This document shows, piece by piece, positions 24,127 to 49,691 of a stretch of DNA of 64,000 bases. The stretch's first letter is position 1, and every line of letters starts with the position of its first letter. The stretch comes from Nocardia bhagyanarayanae (GTDB lineage Bacteria > Actinomycetota > Actinomycetes > Mycobacteriales > Mycobacteriaceae): positions 496,001-560,000 of the forward strand of contig NZ_VFPG01000002.1 of NCBI RefSeq assembly GCF_006716565.1, read 5' to 3'. A model generated the notes under the pieces. That model was not told the origin of the DNA and ran no database searches. It saw only the letters and a list, made by a program, of their open reading frames with translations. A program made the position numbers and the translations under genes.

Positions 24127-24200
24127 GGGGCGGTAGCTCAGTCGGTTAGAGCCGTGGACTCATAATCCATTGGTCGCGGGTTCGAGCCCCGCCCGCCCCA
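24127..24200 (+). tRNA. tRNA-Met (CAT anticodon), elongator type
   Basis: A full cloverleaf can be drawn: acceptor GGGGCGG (24127-24133) with CCGCCCC (24193-24199), D stem GCTC/GAGC, anticodon stem GTGGA/TCCAT enclosing CTCATAA (anticodon CAT), variable loop TGGTC, and T arm GCGGG-TTCGAGC-CCCGC. CCA is not encoded. The first pair is G-C, so it is not the initiator. A CAT tRNA modified to read isoleucine (tRNA-Ile2) cannot be excluded from sequence alone. Confidence 0.93.
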
Positions 24201-24481
24201 CAAATCCCCTGATCAGAGCCCTTGTGACTGGTTGTAGGCTGGCCACTGGAGGGCCAAGTCGCTGTCTGCTCTCTTTCCTCATCTCAGGCACAAGCTGCCC
24301 GCTCGTGGCCTCCTCTGCAGTCGTGCCACCGAGGCCTTGGGCGCTGGTGGCCGGCTGTGACTTCCCAAGCGTTGCAACAAATTTGCTCCGGTCAGGCGGC
24401 GTTGGTCGGTCTACAGGAGACGAATTCGGGTCTGATCGAGCTCGCTCAGGGTGCGGGCCGAGAGCGGATTGGTAGCCGTAC
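24201..24481. other. Region downstream of tRNA-Met, no gene seen
   Basis: About 280 bases with no convincing coding frame. Composition is less GC-extreme than the metabolic genes upstream. Integrases commonly use the 3' end of tRNA genes, so a relic attachment region is possible, but no integrase gene or second copy of the tRNA end was found in the window. Confidence 0.45.
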
Positions 24482-38546: not shown

Positions 38547-39014
38547 ATGGGACATGTCGAGCACAAGGCGACCGGTGCCGCGCCGGTGGATTTCGTGTTC
38601 GGGTACATCGCCGACTATCGGAATGTGCCGAAGTGGATGTTCGGAGTTCGCCATTACACGCCGGTCGGCGAGCAGACCTCCGGCGTCGGCGCGGTCTTCG
38701 ACACGGCGCTGCACCTGGGCCCGACCACGCTCCACTTGCGCGCTGAGGTCACCGAATGGGAAGACGGCGCGAAGGTCTCCCTGCACGCGATCAAGGGCAT
38801 CGAGGGCACGGTCCACTGGAGTTTCGAAGCCATCGATCCGACCACGACCGAGATCGGTGTGGTGGTCGACTACCGGGTGCCAGGCGGATTCGCGGGCCGC
38901 GCGCTGGACAAGATCATCCAGGCGTTCGTCGGCCCGGCCATCCGGCACACCGAGAAGAGTCTGCGCGAGCAGGTGCTCGCGAGTTATCGGGAATCCCTCG
39001 GCGAGAACGCCTGA
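38547..39014 (+). CDS. SRPBCC-fold (polyketide cyclase/START-like) protein
   Basis: A 155-residue SRPBCC protein: PVDFVFGYIADYRNVPKWM, GVGAVFDTALHLGPTTLHLR, VHWSFEAIDPTTTEIGVVVD, and the C-terminal helix AIRHTEKSLREQVLASYRES. Members bind hydrophobic ligands in a deep pocket; the ligand cannot be inferred. ATG 38547 is preceded by AAGGGGAG. It is convergent with the MFS pump gene. Confidence 0.8.
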   Translation: MGHVEHKATGAAPVDFVFGYIADYRNVPKWMFGVRHYTPVGEQTSGVGAVFDTALHLGPTTLHLRAEVTEWEDGAKVSLHAIKGIEGTVHWSFEAIDPTTTEIGVVVDYRVPGGFAGRALDKIIQAFVGPAIRHTEKSLREQVLASYRESLGENA

Positions 39015-39023
39015 CGAGATGGG

Positions 39024-40493
39024 CTACGCCCGCACGGACTCCGGATCCGGATCCGGTTCCGCGACCGGCGTCTTACGCGCCCGCAGCAGCACCATGCCGA
39101 GCACGGCGGCGGCGATGCTGAAGCCCGCGCTGATCCACGCGCCGCTCGACATGGCTTCGGTGAACGCCGTCTTGGCCGGTTCCTCGAAACCGAGTTGGAA
39201 TGCCGCGCCGATGGATTCGCGCGCGGCCTCGGGCGCGTCGGCGGGCATGTTCGCCGTGAACACCCCGGCCAGCACACTGCCAAGCACCGCGATGCTGATC
39301 GCCATGCCGACCTGTTGGAGCGTGTCGTTCATGGCGGAGCCGACGCCCGCGTGCTCCAGCGGAATGGCGCTCATGATGGCGGCGTAGGCGGCGGGTCCCG
39401 CCAAGCCGCCGCCGACACCCATGACCAGCATGCTGACCAGCACCCACGTGTACCCGCTGCCGACGGCGAGGATCGCGAAGGCCAGTCCCATGACCAGCAG
39501 TCCCGACACGATCAGCGTCTTGTTGCTCAGCTTCTTGCCGAGAGTCGCGCCGAGCCCGTTGCAGACGGCCGCGGCCACGGCGTAGGGCAGCAGCGCCAGA
39601 CCCGCCTTCATCGGGCCGTACCCGAGCACGAACTGCAGGTACTGGGTGAGCATCAGCATGATCGCGCCCATGCCGAAGACCATGAGCAGCAGCGTGAAAC
39701 AGGTGCCTGTGAAGTCCCGGTTGCGGAACACGGCGAGCGGCAGCATCGGATGCGCCGAGCGGCTCTCCCACGCGACGAACCCGACCGTCGCCAGCGCCGC
39801 GAGCACGATCACCGGAATGTTCCATTCGCGTTCGATGATGACGTAGACGATCGAGACGAGCGCGACGATCGACAGCAGCACGCCGATCAGGTCGACGGGC
39901 CGCTGCTCACCGGTGGTCTCCGGCATGAGCACGAGCGCGGCGACGATGGCGAGCACCGCGACCGGGATGTTGAGCAGGAACACCGAGCCCCACCAGTAGT
40001 GCTCCAGCAGGAATCCGCCCAGCGTGGGGCCCGCGACGATGCCGACCATCGAGACGGTGCTCCAAGCGGCCATCGCGGTGCGCCGTTCGTCCTCGGCGAA
40101 GGTGGTCATCAGGATGGACAGCGTCGATGGCATGAGCAGCGAGCCGCCGACGCCCATCGCGGCCCTCGCGGCGATCACCTGCCACGGTTCGGTGGCGACG
40201 ACGGCCGCGAGCGAGGCCGCGCCGAAGACGGCAAGGCCCGTGACGAGCATCCGTCGCCTGCCGAACCGGTCGGAAAGGCTGCCCGCCGTGAGCAGCAGCC
40301 CGGCGAAGACCAGCACGTAGGCGTCCAGGATCCATTGCACGTCGGACGGCGTGGCGCCGAGTTCTCGAATCAGTGACGGGATGGCGAGATTGAGGACGGT
40401 GCCGTCGATCATCAGCACCAGCAAGGACAGGCAGAGGACCCCCAGCACCCACCAGCGGCGCGGGTCTCGTACGGTGTTCGATTCCACTCGCAC
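39024..40493 (-). CDS. MFS drug transporter, DHA2 (14-span) family
   Basis: A 489-residue efflux pump of the EmrB/QacA type with about 14 spans. Motif A reads GSLSDRFGRRRMLVTG, and the antiporter motif C region reads VGIVAGPTLGGFLLEHYWWGSVFLLN. The start WWVLGVLCLSLLVLMIDGTV is typical (motif D1). GTG 40493 or GTG 40487 is possible. It is divergent from a TetR regulator, with an operator-like palindrome between them, the usual arrangement for drug-inducible export. Confidence 0.9.
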   Translation of the reverse strand: MRVESNTVRDPRRWWVLGVLCLSLLVLMIDGTVLNLAIPSLIRELGATPSDVQWILDAYVLVFAGLLLTAGSLSDRFGRRRMLVTGLAVFGAASLAAVVATEPWQVIAARAAMGVGGSLLMPSTLSILMTTFAEDERRTAMAAWSTVSMVGIVAGPTLGGFLLEHYWWGSVFLLNIPVAVLAIVAALVLMPETTGEQRPVDLIGVLLSIVALVSIVYVIIEREWNIPVIVLAALATVGFVAWESRSAHPMLPLAVFRNRDFTGTCFTLLLMVFGMGAIMLMLTQYLQFVLGYGPMKAGLALLPYAVAAAVCNGLGATLGKKLSNKTLIVSGLLVMGLAFAILAVGSGYTWVLVSMLVMGVGGGLAGPAAYAAIMSAIPLEHAGVGSAMNDTLQQVGMAISIAVLGSVLAGVFTANMPADAPEAARESIGAAFQLGFEEPAKTAFTEAMSSGAWISAGFSIAAAVLGMVLLRARKTPVAEPDPDPESVRA

Positions 40494-40500
40494 ACCGTAC

Positions 40501-40529
40501 TATGCACTCGAACGATGTGCGAGTGAATA
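40501..40529. promoter_or_regulatory. Operator-like palindromes between MFS pump and TetR
   Basis: TATGCACTCG (40501-40510) and CGAGTGAATA (40520-40529) are inverted repeats with one mismatch around nine bases. A second arrangement pairs CACTCGCACA (40485-40494) perfectly with TGTGCGAGTG (40516-40525). Repeated CACTCG half-sites cover both start regions, fitting repression of the pump and of the TetR gene by the TetR protein. Confidence 0.72.
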
Positions 40530-40541
40530 TAGGATCATGTC

Positions 40542-41261
40542 GTGACCAAGCAGTTCACTTCGGTATGGATCCGCGAACTCCGGCAGCCGCGGGCGTCGGG
40601 GCTGGATCGCGCGCAGATCGTCGCGGCGGCCCTCGAGATTCTCGATTCCGAGGGGCTGGACGCGCTGAGCATGCGCAAGATCGGCGCGAAGCTGAACGCG
40701 GGCGCGACCAGCCTGTACTGGTACGTCGCCAACAAGGACGAACTGCTCGAACTCGTCCTCGACGAGTTCTGGGGGATGCTGCAAGCCCCGGAATCGGAAG
40801 AGGCGTCCTGGCGCGAGGTGCTCACCGCCTTCGCCTACAGCCTGCGCGGCACCATGCGCGCGCACCCGTGGGTCGCCGGACTCATCGGCCACATCCCGAG
40901 CATCGGACCGAACGCGATGCGCATCACCGATCGGTTGCGGCGGGCATTCACGGAGGCGGGCTTTCGCGGTATGGACATCTACCTCGCCAGCGGCACGGTG
41001 ATGTCTTTCGTGCTCGGCCAAGTACTTCCGGAGATCGCGTATGCCAAGGCCTACGGCGAGGACTACGACGCCGAAGGCATCTTGCGAGTGATGAGCGAAG
41101 TCACCGCGGACTATCCCGAGATGTACGCCGACTACCGGGCCGTCACACCGACCGACCCGGAAGTCGCTCGCGCGCTCGCCTTCGATTTCGGGCTGCTGTC
41201 GGTGCTCGACGGACTGGAGTTGCGCCTGCGCGATGGCGACCGGTCGCGGCTGCGGAAGTGA
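40542..41261 (+). CDS. TetR-family regulator (TetR_C type) of the MFS pump
   Basis: A 239-residue regulator of the tetracycline-repressor-proper branch: LDRAQIVAAALEILDSEGLD, LSMRKIGAKLNAGATSLYWY, VANKDELLELVLDE, with the LYWYVANKDEL signature. A long C-terminal TetR_C-like ligand domain follows (FAYSLRGTMRAHPWVAGLIG). GTG 40542 is used. Position and the palindromes at 40485-40529 make the MFS gene its clear target. Confidence 0.88.
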   Translation: MTKQFTSVWIRELRQPRASGLDRAQIVAAALEILDSEGLDALSMRKIGAKLNAGATSLYWYVANKDELLELVLDEFWGMLQAPESEEASWREVLTAFAYSLRGTMRAHPWVAGLIGHIPSIGPNAMRITDRLRRAFTEAGFRGMDIYLASGTVMSFVLGQVLPEIAYAKAYGEDYDAEGILRVMSEVTADYPEMYADYRAVTPTDPEVARALAFDFGLLSVLDGLELRLRDGDRSRLRK

Positions 41262-41337
41262 GGGCGGTGCGCGGAACCGCGGTCGACCGGCCGGGGCCTG
41301 CCGTACGCTGAGCCGGTCGCGGCGACAGGAGTTTTCG

Positions 41338-42603
41338 GTGGGCACAGTCTTGGTCAAGGGGCAGAACGGGCCGGTGGTGGCGGGGCGGGTCGTGGTGTCC
41401 GTCCGCACCGAGGCGAAGGTCGACGTGTCGGCGCTGCTGGTCACCGAAGCCGGTACGGTTCGTTCCGACGCGGACTTCGTGTTCTTCAACCAGCCCGTCG
41501 CGCCCGGTGTCGAGCTGACCTCGGGTGCGCCCGCCGCACTGGCGATATCGCCCGCCGACCTGCCCGACGAGATCGCTCAGGTGCGCGCGGTGCTCACGCT
41601 GGACGACCCCGCCGCCACCTTCGGACGATTCGCGCCGCCGGTCGCGACCGTCGCCGACGACCTCGGAAACGTGCTGTACGAGTACGAGATCGAGGGACTC
41701 GGCAGCGAATCGGTGGTGATCGCGCTCGAGCTCTACCGGCGCGGTCCGCAGTGGAAGGTGCGCGCGGTCGGGCAGGGGTACGCGGGCGGGTTCGCCGCGC
41801 TCGTCACCGATCACGGAGTCGTCGTGGACGACGAGCCGTCGCCGAGCGCCGCCGCGGCACCGCCGACCGTGCCCGAGGTTCGCACCGTGCCGGGAGAGTC
41901 GAAACTCTCGTTCGAGAAGCGCACCGTGCTCGACATGCGCAAGCGTGCGGTCGCCAAGGTTCTGATCGATCAGAACGCCATGGGCGTCCGGGCGCGAGTG
42001 GTGCTCGTCATCGACAAGACCGGAAGCATGCAGAAGCAGTACCGGCAGAAGGTCGTGCACCGCGTGGTGGATCGGATGATCCCGATCGCCACCCAGCTCG
42101 ACGACGACGGGACGCTCGAGGCCTACCTGTACGCGCTGTCCTACACCAAACTGCCGGATATCCAAGTGTCCGAGGGCGATCACTGGTCGGAGACCCACCT
42201 GCACCTCAGCGGCACGCACGCGGGCATCGACTACGGCGCCCTCGGCGGACGCAACGACGAGTTGCCGATCATGCGCGCCGTCATCGATACGCTGCGCCCC
42301 GGCGATCGGCCGACGCTGGTGCTGTTCTTCACCGACGGCGGTTTCGCCAAGAAGCCGGAGATCACCGCCCTGATGCGGGAAGCCTCACGGCTGCCCGCGT
42401 TCTGGCAGTTCGTCGGGCTTGGCAAGGCCAACTACGGGTTGCTGCGCAGCATCGACGAGATGGACGGCAGGCTCGTCGACAACGCCGGCTTCTTCGCGCT
42501 CGACGACATCGACAGCGTCGACGACGCGCAGCTGTACGCCAGGTTGCTCGGCGAATTCCCGCAGTGGTTGCGCGCCGCGCGTGCCGCGGGCGTGACGAGC
42601 TGA
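41338..42603 (+). CDS. TerD-vWA fusion protein (TerF-like)
   Basis: A 421-residue protein with an N-terminal TerD domain (about residues 1-165: VSALLVTEAGTVRSDADFVF, VIALELYRRGPQWKVRAVGQ, GYAGGFAALV), a Pro/Ala linker, and a C-terminal vWA domain (VVLVIDKTGSMQKQYRQKVV with MIDAS DxTxS; TLVLFFTDGG). TerD domains bind calcium and belong to tellurite/stress and phage-defence-associated complexes; vWA domains mediate metal-dependent assembly. GTG 41338 follows AGGAG. A second TerD protein with an HNH nuclease lies 2 kb downstream on the other strand. Confidence 0.85.
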   Translation: MGTVLVKGQNGPVVAGRVVVSVRTEAKVDVSALLVTEAGTVRSDADFVFFNQPVAPGVELTSGAPAALAISPADLPDEIAQVRAVLTLDDPAATFGRFAPPVATVADDLGNVLYEYEIEGLGSESVVIALELYRRGPQWKVRAVGQGYAGGFAALVTDHGVVVDDEPSPSAAAAPPTVPEVRTVPGESKLSFEKRTVLDMRKRAVAKVLIDQNAMGVRARVVLVIDKTGSMQKQYRQKVVHRVVDRMIPIATQLDDDGTLEAYLYALSYTKLPDIQVSEGDHWSETHLHLSGTHAGIDYGALGGRNDELPIMRAVIDTLRPGDRPTLVLFFTDGGFAKKPEITALMREASRLPAFWQFVGLGKANYGLLRSIDEMDGRLVDNAGFFALDDIDSVDDAQLYARLLGEFPQWLRAARAAGVTS

Positions 42604-42630
42604 GCCGCGGCGGTCAGCCGTCGACGAGGA

Positions 42631-42906
42631 TCAGCCGATCACCGCGTTCATGATGGTGCCCGCGCTGGTGGCGACCACGCCGCCGATCATCGCGCCCGCC
42701 ACCATCTTCGGCGACTCGAGGCCGCCTCCGGTCCACTTCTCCCAGGCGAACCGGCCGCCCGCGTAGATGATGCCGCAGATACCCGACAGCAGAACGAACC
42801 AGGTCAGGTAGCGGACGAGCTGCAAGATCTTATCGGACACCGGCGGCGCCTCGGGCGTCGGATTGCCGATCTGCGCCAGGGTGTCGTATGCGACGGCCAG
42901 GATCAT
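42631..42906 (-). CDS. Small two-span membrane protein (paralogue of 43186 gene)
   Basis: A 91-residue protein: MILAVAYDTLAQIGNPTPEA, PPVSDKILQLVRYLTWFVLL, SGICGIIYAGGRFAWEKWTG, and the second span MVAGAMIGGVVATSAGTIMN. It is about 80% identical to the divergent gene at 43186. Size and layout resemble pilin-like VirB2/TrbC subunits or holin-like proteins, but no motif proves either. The frame upstream of ATG 42906 (to 43122) looks non-coding. Confidence 0.72.
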   Translation of the reverse strand: MILAVAYDTLAQIGNPTPEAPPVSDKILQLVRYLTWFVLLSGICGIIYAGGRFAWEKWTGGGLESPKMVAGAMIGGVVATSAGTIMNAVIG

Positions 42907-43185
42907 CGTTCGCTGCTCATTCCGGGTTCGGGACAAGGAGAATCGCTGAAAAGATGGTATCCGGTTCTGCGGCCTGACGCAGACACCTCGCGCCCGTGGC
43001 GCGATCGTCGCCGCCGCCCCGGCACAGCCCCGAACGACACCGCGCCGTAGCCATGCTGTCGCTGTGGCGCAGACATCGTTGTGACACAGCGCCTTGCGAG
43101 CGGCCGGGTCCGTCCGGATCATGGGTGGGACGTGGTGGTCGATGCCCGGCCGCCGTGAAACCGGTGAATCCCGAGGTAACCAACA

Positions 43186-43479
43186 GTGAGCATGATCTTG
43201 ATGTCGGTCGGGGACACGTATTCCACCCTGGCGCAGATCGGTAACCCGACTCCCGAGGCGCCGCCGTTGTCGGACAAACTCATGCAGTTCGTCCGGTACG
43301 CGACCTGGTTCGCGCTGCTGTCCGGCATCATGAGCATCATCTACGCGGGCGGCCGCTTCGCCTGGGAGAAATGGTCCGGCGGGGCACTGCAGTCGCCGAA
43401 GATGGTGGCGGGCGCGATGATCGGCGGAGTCGTCGCGACCAGCGCGGGCACCATCATGAACGCGGTCGTCGGAAGCTGA
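43186..43479 (+). CDS. Small two-span membrane protein (paralogue of 42631 gene)
   Basis: A 97-residue protein from GTG 43186 (ATG 43192 and 43201 also in frame) after GAGGTAACC. It shares DTYSTLAQIGNPTPEAPPLS, IIYAGGRFAWEKWSGG and SPKMVAGAMIGGVVATSAGT with its divergent paralogue. The two genes form an inverted duplication around a 279-bp centre. An oligomeric membrane component serving the flanking TerD proteins is a reasonable guess; function unknown. Confidence 0.72.
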   Translation: MSMILMSVGDTYSTLAQIGNPTPEAPPLSDKLMQFVRYATWFALLSGIMSIIYAGGRFAWEKWSGGALQSPKMVAGAMIGGVVATSAGTIMNAVVGS

Positions 43480-43527
43480 CTTCAGACCGGCCGGTATCCA
43501 GCCACGGGGCTGTCTCGCGCCGGCCGC

Positions 43528-43965
43528 TCAGCCCTCCCAAGTCCAGCGCGGCACCGCGCGGATCGGATGCAACTCCTCGTCGGTGCCCGCGTGCGAGTTC
43601 TGCTGCGCAACTTCCGCGCCGAACTCCACGTGCGAGCGCACCGCGTCGCGGAACGCCGCCGACTCCAGCAGTCCCGCCTCCTGGAACGCCTCCATGTACA
43701 GTTCGGCGAAGCGCTCGCGCTGCTCGTCGGTGATCTTCAGGTGGCGGTGCACCGCGATGAGGTAGTCGAACCCGAGTTCGCGGCTGAAGCGATCCGGGCC
43801 GCCGAACGACTCCGCGGTGAACCAGGTCAGGTGATCGACGTGGTGCGGGCGACGCTCGGGGAACAGCGACTTCAGCACCGGGTCGGCCAGCACCTTGTCG
43901 TAGAAGGCGGTCTCGACCCGGCGCAGCGCCTCCTCGCCTCCGACGTGTTCGTACATGCTCGTCAT
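43528..43965 (-). CDS. glbO: Group II truncated haemoglobin (TrHbO/GlbO type)
   Basis: A 145-residue 2-on-2 globin: SMYEHVGGEEALRRVETAFY, VLADPVLKSLFPERRPHHVD, HLTWFTAESFGGPDRFSREL, and the proximal-His helix LIAVHRHLKITDEQRERF. Group II truncated globins bind oxygen and NO and are linked to respiration or peroxide/NO protection in mycobacteria. It starts at ATG 43965. Neighbours are TerD-type stress genes. Confidence 0.88.
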   Translation of the reverse strand: MTSMYEHVGGEEALRRVETAFYDKVLADPVLKSLFPERRPHHVDHLTWFTAESFGGPDRFSRELGFDYLIAVHRHLKITDEQRERFAELYMEAFQEAGLLESAAFRDAVRSHVEFGAEVAQQNSHAGTDEELHPIRAVPRWTWEG

Positions 43966-44141
43966 GGGTGACCTCCCGACTGGCTGCGATTGCTACCCAT
44001 TGAAGGCCCGCGCGCCGCGGAATGCGCCCGGTTTCGCCGAGAGCGGACCCGAAATCCGTGTTTTCTCAGGGTGTTTCCCGATTCTCGCGCCCGCGTTCCT
44101 GCCGCACGATCGATGCGACCGGATCGAGACGAGGAGCTGAG

Positions 44142-44621
44142 ATGACAGATCGGGCGAAGGACGAGGCGCTGATCCGCGAGGTGGTGGCGCGCGCCGCGCG
44201 GGCGTGGGACGCGGGTGACGCGACGGCCTACGCGGCCGAATTCACCGAGGACAGCGACTACGTCGCGTTCGACGGGACGCTGCTGCGCGGACGCGAGGCG
44301 AACCGCGCCCTGCACGCCGGGCTGTTCGACGGCGTGCTGTACGGCACGAGGATGGAGGGCTCGATCGAGTCGATCCGCTTCCTCACCGACGACGTCGCCG
44401 TCGTGCACCTCACCGGATCGGTGGCGTTCGCCTGGCAGCGCGAGGTGCCCAAGGGCCGTCGCTCCCGCAACACCTGGGTGCTGGTGCGCACCGCGGACGG
44501 CTGGCGCGTCGCCGCGTTCCACAACACCCGGGTGCGGCCGATGCCGGGGGAGGGGCCGGTGGTGCGGTTGTTCGGCGACTACGTGCGCTGGCGGACCGCG
44601 CGGGCGCGAGCGAACGGGTAG
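44142..44621 (+). CDS. SgcJ/EcaC-family SnoaL-like protein
   Basis: A 159-residue NTF2-fold protein: ALIREVVARAARAWDAGDAT, YAAEFTEDSDYVAFDGTLLR, GREANRALHAGLFDGVLYGT, and NTWVLVRTADGWRVAAFHNT. This matches the SgcJ/EcaC oxidoreductase family, whose members have no single defined reaction. ATG 44142 follows GAGGAG. Its 3' end converges on the TerD-HNH gene. Confidence 0.8.
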   Translation: MTDRAKDEALIREVVARAARAWDAGDATAYAAEFTEDSDYVAFDGTLLRGREANRALHAGLFDGVLYGTRMEGSIESIRFLTDDVAVVHLTGSVAFAWQREVPKGRRSRNTWVLVRTADGWRVAAFHNTRVRPMPGEGPVVRLFGDYVRWRTARARANG

Positions 44622-44641
44622 CGGAACAGCGTCCGCGGACG

Positions 44642-46684
44642 TCAGATCCGGGCGCCCTTGGCGCGATTGCAGGCGCGGCAGAGGATCTGCAAGTTGCTCG
44701 CGCTGGTGGCGCCGCCGCGGCTGAGCGGGATGACGTGGTCGAACTCGAGGTAATGCGCGCTGCCGCATTCCACGCACTTGCCGCCGTCGCGCTGCCAGAC
44801 TTCGGCTTTCACTTCCTGCGGGATGCTGCGCGAGTCGCGCTGGCCCGGCGTGAGCACCAGGCGCTTCGCGACCCGCAGCGCGCCTTCCAGCGCGGCGGCG
44901 ACGTAATCCGGGTCCGCCACCTCGAAGGTCGCGCCGCCGCGGGCCGAGGTCGCCGCGATCACCACGACGCCCGCCTCGACGTGCACCGAGACGACCCTGG
45001 ACCACGGCATCTCCACGCCGGCGCCGGTGCCGACGAAACGCAGCTTCTTGTTGCTGGCGATCAGCCTGCCCTCGGTGAGCTTCGGTCCGCGGGCCAGCTG
45101 CCGCACGTGCGTGGCGACCAGGTCGAGGTGCACCTTCTCTTCCGAATCCAGGTGCAAGCCGGGCGTGCGAACCATCGGCAGATCGCCCTCGCGCAACCGG
45201 CACAGCGTGCGACCGCGGTGCATGCGCCTGCGCAGATCCTCGATGAGCGGTCCGGTCAGCGCCAGCTCGGCGATGGCGCGTTCGAAGATGTCGTACTCCG
45301 GCTGCTGGATCGCCCCGTCCGCGAACGCGAAGGTGACCAGCCGCTCGACGTAGCTGAGCCCGACCCCGCGCAACGCCGTGCGTCCGATGTTCTCGTCGAT
45401 GCGCTGGTAGCGCAGCGACGCCCACAGCGCCTCCCACGGCTCGCCCTGCGGCCCCGAGCCGATCAGCACCCGCCAGGCCCTGGTGTGCCAGTGGGTGAGG
45501 AACTCCTCGATCTCGGCCTCGCAGTACTGGCAAGGTGCGGTTCCGCCGAACAGCTTGCGCCGCAGCGTATTCCCGCAGCGCGGGCAGGCGCGGGGACCCG
45601 GTGGCGCCGTGCGGTAGGTCGCCGAGGTCCATTCCGAGCCGTCCCACCAGCGCATGCGGGACGGGTCCTCGGGATCCGGATGCCAGTCGGCGCGTTCGGG
45701 ATTCGGTGGCGGCGGCGGTGGGGCAGGTTGCCGCGATCGCCGAGTCAGATCGACGTGCTGATCGGCGCGCGAAGGTCTATCCCAAGGAGAGGGCTCCTGC
45801 GTCTGGGGGCCGCTCGGGTTCGTCGGTTCCCCGGCTCCGGTGGATTCATGACCGGTCCGCCTGGATGTCGCCGGCGGGTCGACGGGATGGCGTGGCGCGC
45901 CGGTCCCTTGCCTGGCGGCGGTTTCCGCGGCACCGACCTGCGCGGCGCGGTGCGACACGTCCCCCGGTATCTGCCGGGCGGGGTAGGGAGCGCCTGAAGG
46001 CAGGTGCCGTTCCGGTGCGGAGTCGGCGGTCCGCGTGCCGCGCGCGACGGTATCGTGCGCGCCGGGTCGCGTCGCCGTCCCGGGACGCCCGACGGAACCC
46101 GCGGTCCCACGCGCCGCGTCCAGAGCGTCACTGGCGTGCGGCCGGGCGAATGGGTCCGAGGGCCGTGCCGGGCGCCGGGGCGACTCGTCGACCGCGACGC
46201 CGAACTCGGTGACCAGCCCGGCCAGCCCGCTGCTCCACCCCTGACCGATCGCGCGGAACCGCCACCGGCCGTCGCGGCGGTAGAACTCGCCGAACATCAT
46301 GGCGGCCACCGCGTCGGCGTCCTCGATGTCGAAGCGGGCGATCGGGCCGTCGGCGGCGAAGACGGTCACCGTCAAACCCGCTATGTCCCCGAATGTTCCG
46401 TGCTCGATGGAGCCGCTGACCACGATCCGGTCCACGTCGTTCTCGGTGCGCGGCAGCGAGACGCTCAGCCGCGCGGTCCCCGGCGCGGGTTCCTGATCCA
46501 GGGTCACCGCCTGCGAGATGTGCCGAGGCGCGTTGTAGAACACCAGATCCCGGTCCGTGCGCACCGCGCCCGACCCGTCCAGCAACAGCGCGTGCGCGTC
46601 GACGACATGCTCCGACCGCCATGAAACGACCACGGCTAGAAGGGATGTCGGTACCGGCGCGTGCGCGCCCTTGCTCAGTTTCAT
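44642..46684 (-). CDS. TerD / DUF2510-like / zinc-ribbon / HNH nuclease protein, 680 aa
   Basis: An unusual multidomain protein from ATG 46684. Domains in order: TerD (1-166; AHALLLDGSGAVRTDRDLVF, RWRFRAIGQGWSSGLAGLV); Pro/Arg-rich disordered linker (167-330); DUF2510-like motif (333-354; DWHPDPEDPSRMRWWDGSEW); zinc ribbon (Cys 367, 370, 385, 388); a helical part with a TerB-like FADGAIQQPEYDIFERA (about 455-471); a GRAM/PH-like beta region (536-600); and an HNH endonuclease (627-677; CVECGSAHYLEFDHVIPLSR, Asn664, CRAC). The HNH catalytic and zinc residues are intact, so it can plausibly cut DNA. Upstream in-frame codons to 46846 look non-coding. Confidence 0.85.
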   Translation of the reverse strand: MKLSKGAHAPVPTSLLAVVVSWRSEHVVDAHALLLDGSGAVRTDRDLVFYNAPRHISQAVTLDQEPAPGTARLSVSLPRTENDVDRIVVSGSIEHGTFGDIAGLTVTVFAADGPIARFDIEDADAVAAMMFGEFYRRDGRWRFRAIGQGWSSGLAGLVTEFGVAVDESPRRPARPSDPFARPHASDALDAARGTAGSVGRPGTATRPGAHDTVARGTRTADSAPERHLPSGAPYPARQIPGDVSHRAAQVGAAETAARQGTGAPRHPVDPPATSRRTGHESTGAGEPTNPSGPQTQEPSPWDRPSRADQHVDLTRRSRQPAPPPPPPNPERADWHPDPEDPSRMRWWDGSEWTSATYRTAPPGPRACPRCGNTLRRKLFGGTAPCQYCEAEIEEFLTHWHTRAWRVLIGSGPQGEPWEALWASLRYQRIDENIGRTALRGVGLSYVERLVTFAFADGAIQQPEYDIFERAIAELALTGPLIEDLRRRMHRGRTLCRLREGDLPMVRTPGLHLDSEEKVHLDLVATHVRQLARGPKLTEGRLIASNKKLRFVGTGAGVEMPWSRVVSVHVEAGVVVIAATSARGGATFEVADPDYVAAALEGALRVAKRLVLTPGQRDSRSIPQEVKAEVWQRDGGKCVECGSAHYLEFDHVIPLSRGGATSASNLQILCRACNRAKGARI

Positions 46685-46817
46685 CGTGCTCGAATATTGC
46701 CACGACCCTCCGACACGCCGAATTCGCGAGGTCCGCGCGCGGGCGCGCCGAGGCGACACAGACCGGGCGGTCCGGGATTTACCGGCGTTCCGGCGCTCGG
46801 TCGGGCACAGTATTGCT

Positions 46818-47312
46818 ATGAGTACCCCGAAGGGGTCGGGCCGCAAGAAACAGACCCCGAAGTCAACGGGACCGCGCGTCCCCGGCCCCGCGGAGATCCT
46901 GGCCGCCGCGCAGACGGCGGTCGAGGCGGCCCAATCGGCCGCTGGTCAGGCGCTGGAATCGGCGCAGCTCACCGCCGGACACGCCTTCGACGCCGCGGTC
47001 CGGCTGCCACCGGCCTCGGCCCAGCTGGCCGCGCAACTGCCCGATCTGATCGAGAACCTGACGATGGCCATCGACCGGCTGAACTCGACCATCGACCGGT
47101 TGGACCGGACACTCGCGCTGGCCGACCCGGCGTTCGCCGCCTACGACCGGTTGCTGCCGCGACTGGAGGCGATGATCGCCCTCGGTGAGGACGTGCTCGG
47201 CAGGCTCGCCAGATTGCCGGGCGTCGCCATGCTCGGCAAGGTGACCGGATTCGGCGGCAGGCGGCCCGGCGAGGAGGAACCGCCGCCCGAGCCGCCGAAG
47301 CGGCGTCGCTGA
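46818..47312 (+). CDS. Hypothetical Ala-rich coiled-coil protein
   Basis: A 164-residue protein from ATG 46818. It has a basic N-terminus (MSTPKGSGRKKQTPKSTGPR), an Ala/Gln helical stretch (ILAAAQTAVEAAQSAAGQAL), a coiled-coil-like segment with regular Leu/Ile (LIENLTMAIDRLNSTIDRLD), and a Pro/Arg tail. It is divergent from the TerD-HNH gene. No family recognised; the layout resembles phasin-like or cell-envelope-associated small proteins. Confidence 0.6.
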   Translation: MSTPKGSGRKKQTPKSTGPRVPGPAEILAAAQTAVEAAQSAAGQALESAQLTAGHAFDAAVRLPPASAQLAAQLPDLIENLTMAIDRLNSTIDRLDRTLALADPAFAAYDRLLPRLEAMIALGEDVLGRLARLPGVAMLGKVTGFGGRRPGEEEPPPEPPKRRR

Positions 47313-47318
47313 CCGGCC

Positions 47319-49691
<2,373 letters not shown>

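Follow-up and report, generated by a model that had tools for sequence, protein, structure and literature searches.

TerD-HNH, a candidate DNA-damage-inducible endonuclease of Nocardia with a link to Ter systems

Does a 5.4-kb stretch in the genome of the soil bacterium Nocardia bhagyanarayanae that carries two TerD proteins form one system, or does it hold a single gene of interest among unrelated neighbours? The DNA analysed here (the window) comprises 64,000 nucleotides, positions 496,001 to 560,000 of contig NZ_VFPG01000002.1, contig 2 of the two that make up this 7.56 Mb genome. A preliminary description proposed that positions 41338 to 46684 of the window encode an undescribed stress or defence system, with a TerD protein carrying a vWA domain (TerD-vWA) as assembly factor, a divergent pair of small membrane proteins as anchor, and as effector a 680-amino-acid protein joining TerD to an HNH nuclease (TerD-HNH); a truncated globin and a SnoaL-like protein lie among them. 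Every part that it named was recovered in its place by open reading frames and Pfam. Our analysis points to a smaller unit, the single TerD-HNH gene, a chromosomal core gene of Nocardia, and we hold with moderate confidence that its product is a DNA-damage-inducible HNH endonuclease scaffolded by TerD, TerB-like and PH-like parts, a prediction made from sequence.

The TerD-HNH protein

The gene, its predicted promoter and the parts of the protein are as follows.

44642..46684, minus strand: TerD-DUF2510-zinc ribbon-TerB-like-PH-like-HNH protein, 680 amino acids (open reading frame, Pfam, alignment with 70 Nocardia homologues)
46694..46716, minus strand: RecA-NDp/PafBC-like promoter, GTGTCGGAG-8 nt-CAATAT, ending 9 nt before the TerD-HNH start codon
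46202..46678, minus strand: TerD domain, residues 3-161 (PF02342, E=2.3e-30, 105.9 bits against a cut-off of 25.3)
45593..45685, minus strand: DUF2510 motif, residues 334-364 (PF10708, E=9e-6, 25.8 bits against a cut-off of 24)
45521..45586, minus strand: four-Cys zinc ribbon, Cys 367, 370, 385 and 388
45191..45529, minus strand: helical TerB-like region, residues about 386-498, with an FADG...E motif
44849..45166, minus strand: PH-like domain, residues about 507-612, the beta region of the preliminary description (fold match over the domain)
44648..44776, minus strand: HNH domain, residues 637-679, with DH at 649/650, N at 664 and CN..K from 672

The fusion of TerD to a nuclease domain is real and conserved: the module is present in 114 of 118 Nocardia genomes (counted with alignment A2, the module minus HNH), 18 of which have more than one match. 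It is not a chance reading frame, because the window's protein and 70 Nocardia homologues can be aligned throughout, except in a variable linker that separates TerD from DUF2510, and the ratio of nonsynonymous to synonymous change (dN/dS) is low. (Loci L050, L066, L068, L074, L083 and L084 were left out of this alignment of 71.) Against three near relatives dN/dS is 0.40-0.47 in the linker, 0.02-0.10 across the PH-like and HNH parts, which are the most constrained of the protein, and 0.02-0.06 in HNH alone.

The description of the HNH domain as intact has held up well. It scores far above the Pfam cut-off (PF01844, E=2e-12, 47.5 bits against 21.4), its core is invariant or nearly so in the 71 sequences, and five residues of the DH...N...CN..K core (D, H, N, N and K) stay unchanged through to Deinococcus; cleavage itself is a prediction from these residues. 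In an alignment of Nocardia, the family f32 (Frankia, as inferred from one named locus, L083), a relative of the window's own family (genome G199, presumably Rhodococcus) and Deinococcus, the zinc ribbon is retained, as are the HNH core and the D...E pair within the ADG motif. The ribbon cysteines are invariant among 17 sequences and kept as far as Deinococcus, the first of them at 90% or more. DUF2510 was found in 16 of 16 actinobacterial members and in neither of the two Deinococcus proteins.

The middle of the protein is harder to name. Structure prediction gave a PH-like fold for the former beta region, an assignment new in this analysis, and no clear TerB fold for the helices preceding it. 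The helical region is modelled with a mean predicted local distance difference test (pLDDT) score of 89. Its kinship with TerB in the window's protein is weak, a point against our reading: hhalign matched 29 columns at a probability of 21.6%, a structure search with the helical part returned no significant match, and PF05099 (TerB), in the 3 of the 16 actinobacterial members where it matched, reached E 0.13 at best, the 680-residue protein not being among those listed. The D. radiodurans homologue comes nearer (PF05099 E=1.4e-4, 22.6 bits), still under the curated cut-off of 24.4.

One canonical TerD paralogue of the same genome (L086) carries an Asp-rich, calcium-binding loop of the form GDNxTGxGxGDDE, with the sequence GDNLTGEGEGDDE; in our alignment this loop is absent from both TerD-HNH and TerD-vWA. 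This genome encodes 14 TerD domains in all (L085-L093). One is fused to AIM24 (L091), and another belongs to a protein (L088) in which a D...ExK-like stretch was noticed by eye and which could be a further TerD-nuclease.

How new is the architecture? The D. radiodurans homologue (WP_162177623.1) is, we take it, DRA0057, judging from the published description and the gene order. A 2023 genome paper (PMC10614293, citing Makarova 2001) reports that the D. radiodurans endonuclease domain of DRA0057 is fused to the TerDEXZ/CABP family, and the homologue found here fits that text. A TerD-endonuclease fusion was therefore already in print, and the word "undescribed" fits only in part. Literature searches that covered few subscription papers, and some sources in part, brought to our notice no paper that deals with TerD-HNH of actinobacteria, with the PH fold or with the promoter; no paper pairing TerD with DUF2510 turned up either.

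The promoter of the TerD-HNH gene

The LexA/RecA-independent damage promoter of mycobacteria is given as tTGTCRgtg-8 nt-TannnT (PMC5656591); this RecA-NDp type is reported to extend to other Actinobacteria (PMC5087735, PMC8223512) and to be read by PafBC (PMC6789036, PMC11804915). We compared 67 sequences upstream of Nocardia TerD-HNH genes, leaving out the six loci omitted above and four with fewer than 200 bases upstream (L031, L035, L041 and L058). All share a block from -32 to -10 made of TGTCGG (97-99% per base), five variable bases and CGTGGCATAGT, which matches the published consensus with the exact 8-nt spacer. In the -10 element the A and the last T reach 97-100%, and the first base is C in 93%, against the T of TannnT.

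With at most three mismatches among the 12 specified bases, 47 of the 67 upstreams match at one and the same offset (48 at offsets 3-20), the window's own site at 46694-46716 agreeing at nine of 12. At that threshold five control genes reach 0-5% (PabB 2/47, the neighbouring 164-residue gene that we take to be phasin-like 1/44, APH 2/44, the small membrane genes 0/109 and TerD-vWA 1/29) and random windows 0.67%; TerD-vWA thus does not share the promoter.

Does the consensus mark damage genes in this organism? At one mismatch or fewer it has 55 sites in the window's genome, compared with 11 for the reversed pattern, and it ends 6-14 nt before the called start in 14 of 30 loci. We scanned 20 genes behind such sites: 11 of the 13 exact sites (L227 and L236, 147 and 247 nt from the start, were left out) and nine of the 42 one-mismatch sites, picked for a short distance to the start. 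Twelve have recognised roles in DNA repair or replication or are associated with the SOS response (recA, lexA, uvrA, polA, dnaX, ligA, a UvrD/PcrA helicase, sbcD, endonuclease IV, and Fpg-type, EndoIII-type and SRAP genes), and the other eight comprise a NUDIX protein, a WYL regulator, an FAD oxidoreductase and five without a family. As a separate observation, reading frames without a Pfam family (E 1e-4) follow exact or one-mismatch sites at L226 (1530-2717), L230 (209-1486), L228, L232 and L247, and are candidate DNA-damage genes of Nocardia; a WYL/PafC-like regulator (L235 793-1494; C2:1163366 in this genome) has an exact RecA-NDp site of its own.

In part of the genus TerD-HNH is present a second time, flanked by an M50 protease and gcpE/ispG (six loci: L163, L183, L190, L191, L192 and L194); the names rip1 and dxr used for these neighbours are presumptive and our own, Pfam giving M50 and GcpE. 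A further copy of the same paralogue kind lies beside ispG at L193. We divided the paralogues into group 1 (L163 and six of 12 fetched loci) and group 2 (the other six, of which L187 lacks a usable start). In group 1 the site has one mismatch in six of seven loci and two in the seventh, with a TAnnnT -10 element, and 0.4% of random 160-nt windows in these loci, true sites included, reach one mismatch.

Several observations weigh against reading the block of the main gene as a damage promoter. All 67 sites have at least two mismatches and 19 have four at best; the -10 element starts with C, as noted; and the median position weight matrix score is 8.8, compared with 20-28 for the 16 sites from which the matrix was built. 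Sites with up to three mismatches are common in the window (55 found, 26.6 expected), and the 67 upstreams are not independent events, since the sequences are related. Nor does the signal extend to more distant members: at two mismatches or fewer within 160 nt it was found in 0/12 f32, 0/6 group 2 and 0/2 Deinococcus upstreams, and at three in 2/12, 0/6 and 1/2, at scattered positions, while no box like the radiation/desiccation response motif (RDRM) was seen in Deinococcus (best five mismatches in 300 nt). The evidence for the promoter is its fixed position and its conservation, not its mismatch count. On that evidence Nocardia TerD-HNH has a conserved though degenerate promoter of predicted RecA-NDp/PafBC-like type, new in this analysis. 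Because the promoter resembles those of DNA repair genes, a role in the DNA-damage response is more likely than a new multi-gene defence system; of the proposed "stress or defence", the link to a DNA-damage regulon gains support and anti-phage defence gains none directly.

How might such a protein work? DNA damage would expose single-stranded DNA and activate the WYL regulator PafBC, if PafBC indeed serves this gene, whereupon sigma-A RNA polymerase would read the RecA-NDp-like promoter. In the product, the TerD and TerB-like domains could bind a ligand, a metal or other TerD proteins, and the PH-like domain, to judge by its fold, might dock on a membrane or a partner, so that the HNH endonuclease would be kept inactive or localised by its own Ter-type modules. 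The zinc-bound HNH domain, given its catalytic residues, would nick or cut DNA, processing damaged or foreign molecules.

Inheritance, Deinococcus relatives and the link to Ter systems

A class sample yielded the module in 22 of 394 genomes (four of the window's genus, G199 and 17 of f32) and a phylum sample, searched with alignment A7, in three of 296, all of the window's genus. Among the matches listed for 200 genomes sampled from the order, three of the window's genus and G199 alone span most of the module, and the remaining matches are to the HNH or DUF2510 ends. The best-scoring named locus in the homologue search belongs to Nocardia amikacinitolerans. Within Nocardia, pairwise distances of TerD-HNH track those of PabB, the product of its upstream neighbour (r=0.88), which, with the fixed place of the gene, fits vertical inheritance.

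The relative in G199 (L097; also L154) is a TerD-less protein of 333 residues, 38% identical, in which alignment shows a zinc ribbon followed by the helical, PH-like and HNH parts; it has neither TerD nor DUF2510. A nuclease core therefore exists without TerD, and this protein is a possible form of the ancestral core.

In a plasmid search, two Deinococcus replicons proved to carry homologues that have both TerD and the C-terminal module. In D. radiophilus TerD-HNH (WP_126352148.1) has the same architecture apart from DUF2510 and heads a gene run in the Ter operon of plasmid pRadio2 (L221 7518-17608), in the order TerD-HNH, TerD, TerD-vWA (TerF-like), TerD, TerD and TerC-DUF475, opposite AIM24, HAD, PRTase and ATP-grasp genes. 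The link to Ter systems drawn in the preliminary description is real on this ground, since TerD-HNH lies here in a Ter operon with TerD-vWA, two genes downstream, and TerC. The setting differs from that in Nocardia, where eleven window genes scanned (38547-49691) include no TerC, AIM24, ATP-grasp, PRTase or HAD gene. D. radiodurans DRA0057 has TerD, zinc ribbon, TerB-like, PH-like and HNH parts in the same order and is 38% identical across the C-terminal module; it differs in lacking DUF2510, in its shorter linker and in a neighbourhood without Ter genes, none being annotated within 12 kb on either side.

Might TerD-HNH instead be a Ter effector in conflicts with phages or plasmids, its TerD and TerB-like parts sensing a metabolite or phage cue and releasing HNH on invading DNA? 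The D. radiophilus operon, with its PRTase, HAD and ATP-grasp genes opposite, speaks for this, as do the occurrence of TerD proteins in phages and the proposal made in two papers that Ter systems detect signals of this kind and counter phage (PMC7824862, PMC3710099). We nevertheless consider it unlikely, for TerD-HNH is nearly universal in Nocardia at one fixed metabolic locus, unlike mobile defence genes. PADLOC returned 13 weak matches, all to the HNH end of TerD-HNH and none to TerD-vWA or the membrane proteins. Among plasmids, 2615 records match the whole-protein query, none with a single place covering 80% of it, and apart from the two Deinococcus replicons no record spans 80% of the C-terminal module. 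Of 39 phage records that match, none spans 80% of the protein, and the ten listed are TerD-only or HNH-end pieces; 12 matches on viral contigs are DUF2510 stretches only. On one prophage-like viral contig (L209) DUF2510 occurs two or three times over, as separate adjacent stretches.

Neighbouring genes and comparison with known systems

The genes round TerD-HNH in the window are these.

41338..42603, plus strand: TerD-vWA (TerF-like), 421 amino acids (PF10138 E=1.7e-78, PF02342 E=7e-22)
42631..42906, minus strand: small membrane protein A, two transmembrane segments by eye, of a multicopy Nocardia family
43186..43479, plus strand: small membrane protein B, paralogue of A
43528..43965, minus strand: truncated globin (PF01152 E=1.5e-15), a passenger, 9/64 loci
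44142..44621, plus strand: SnoaL/DUF4440 (TIGR02246) protein, a passenger, 8/64 loci
46818..47312, plus strand: 164-amino-acid helical protein, divergent neighbour, 54/68 Nocardia loci
47319..49691, minus strand: fused aminodeoxychorismate synthase PabA-PabB, fixed neighbour, 66/66 loci

Could TerD-vWA as assembly factor, the membrane pair as anchor and TerD-HNH as effector form one system in Nocardia? The genes alternate in strand, so 41338-46684 is no operon. Synteny was counted over 75 Nocardia loci (L083, which is not Nocardia, and L084, without the HNH part, were dropped and L162 added), with identity limits of 55-60% for the globin, SnoaL and membrane genes. PabB lies upstream at all 66 loci with at least 3.5 kb there, and the divergent 164-residue gene was counted where at least 1 kb was available. 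Downstream, 64 loci offer at least 9.5 kb: 56 have the membrane genes and 34 have TerD-vWA, always on the opposite strand and at a median of 4.8 kb, and all four neighbours of the window, globin and SnoaL included, occur together at two.

Co-occurrence is frequent among Nocardia loci. The membrane genes and TerD-vWA both lie downstream of TerD-HNH at those 34 loci, all 76 of the 118 Nocardia genomes with a PF10138 vWA gene also carry TerD-HNH (no more than 12 kb apart in 51; in the other 25 the vWA gene is more distant or sits on a different contig), the distances of the two proteins correlate (r=0.93), and D. radiophilus has both in one gene run; it is not the case, then, that TerD-HNH never keeps company with these genes. 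Against this, the correlations with PabB are nearly as high (0.88 and 0.90), so that shared ancestry is enough to explain them. A PF10138 vWA gene is missing, at E 0.001, from 38 of the 114 Nocardia genomes that carry TerD-HNH; 12 of the 22 in the class sample are likewise without one, and TerD-vWA, syntenic in about half of the Nocardia loci, is no obligate partner and lacks the damage promoter. The membrane family occurs in five of 394 class genomes (four of the window's genus and one weak match), and of its seven matches in the window's genome two are at this locus and five are over 40 kb away from any TerD gene. We judge such a system improbable: the strand pattern, together with the counts of synteny and of genomes, led us to reject it as a candidate at 41338-46684, and neither the vWA assembly factor nor the membrane anchor stands as a part of it. 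We count the membrane pair, the globin gene and the SnoaL gene as neighbours, and the 5.4 kb in Nocardia is mostly inherited gene order with passengers. TerD-vWA is dispensable in Nocardia; it may go back to an ancestral partnership of the sort seen in the Deinococcus Ter operon.

Proteins A and B are 80% identical and encoded by divergent genes; Pfam gave A a sub-threshold TrbC/VirB2 hint (E=0.039) and B no match. Their family, faintly TrbC/VirB2-like, has four to seven matches in each of four Nocardia genomes.

Neither TerD-vWA nor the membrane genes appeared in the flanks examined at 13 f32 loci and L163, or in those of 12 of 12 further Nocardia paralogue loci. Ten genes scanned between the neighbours at four Nocardia loci (among them TetR, P450, DUF1254, FBP_C, flavin oxidoreductase, MerR) are metabolic, regulatory or unnamed, vary by clade and show no common theme; nor do ten flanking genes in f32 and at L163 (aldehyde dehydrogenase, PLD-like, Sir2, dehydrogenase, integrase, GcpE, M50). 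In an all-against-all search for recurrent partners over nine locus groups (36 loci), three clusters reached at least seven groups, and beyond the TerD-HNH gene and 1.2 kb round it their members fell in only two to four; two other clusters spanned six and five groups. An Rfam scan of 40000-48000 found no RNA family, and the sole tRNA of the window is a tRNA-Met (CAT) at 24127-24201.

That TerD-HNH is mainly a structural or regulatory protein whose HNH part binds DNA or zinc without cutting we regard as the least probable reading, for although profile matches of that part to solved nucleases are short and TerD, TerB and PH modules are typical scaffolds, the catalytic and zinc residues do not vary between Nocardia and Deinococcus, and nowhere in the protein is constraint stronger than in the HNH and PH parts.

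Beyond the damage-inducible endonuclease that we favour lies a bolder and more tentative possibility. TerD-HNH may be a dedicated PafBC-induced damage nuclease that joins Ter signalling, in which TerD and TerB would sense a ligand or metal, to the RecA-independent damage response of actinobacteria, networks thought to be separate; its Nocardia form would have shed the Ter operon, become a core enzyme of repair or damage surveillance and, in part of the genus, been duplicated beside rip1 with a strong damage promoter. The function of TerD is a long-standing question: TerD proteins have been connected with tellurite, phage and DNA damage, and no mechanism is settled. A TerD domain fused to an intact nuclease behind a damage-type promoter offers a single gene on which to test whether TerD acts in DNA processing, with DRA0057 of D. 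radiodurans, a harmless laboratory species, as a ready counterpart.

With HNH nucleases of the McrA, ZRANB3, IscB and Cas9 type TerD-HNH shares the DH...N...N and CxxC pairs, a similarity limited to about 20-85 C-terminal residues; a Pfam scan showed no RuvC, guide or methyl-binding part in it. With the Ter-dependent stress response systems, reportedly described by Anantharaman et al. 2012, it shares TerD, a TerB-like domain and a TerF-type TerD-vWA, the vWA gene being present in the window and at 34 of 64 loci and not in one operon with TerD-HNH; those systems also have a biosynthetic module and TerC, neither of which lies beside the Nocardia genes. From the RecA-NDp/PafBC regulon its promoter differs in the C that opens the -10 element and in a weaker match than that of the repair genes of its own genome, and it shares with that regulon the TGTCGG box, the 8-nt spacer, a -10-like element and the short distance to the start codon.

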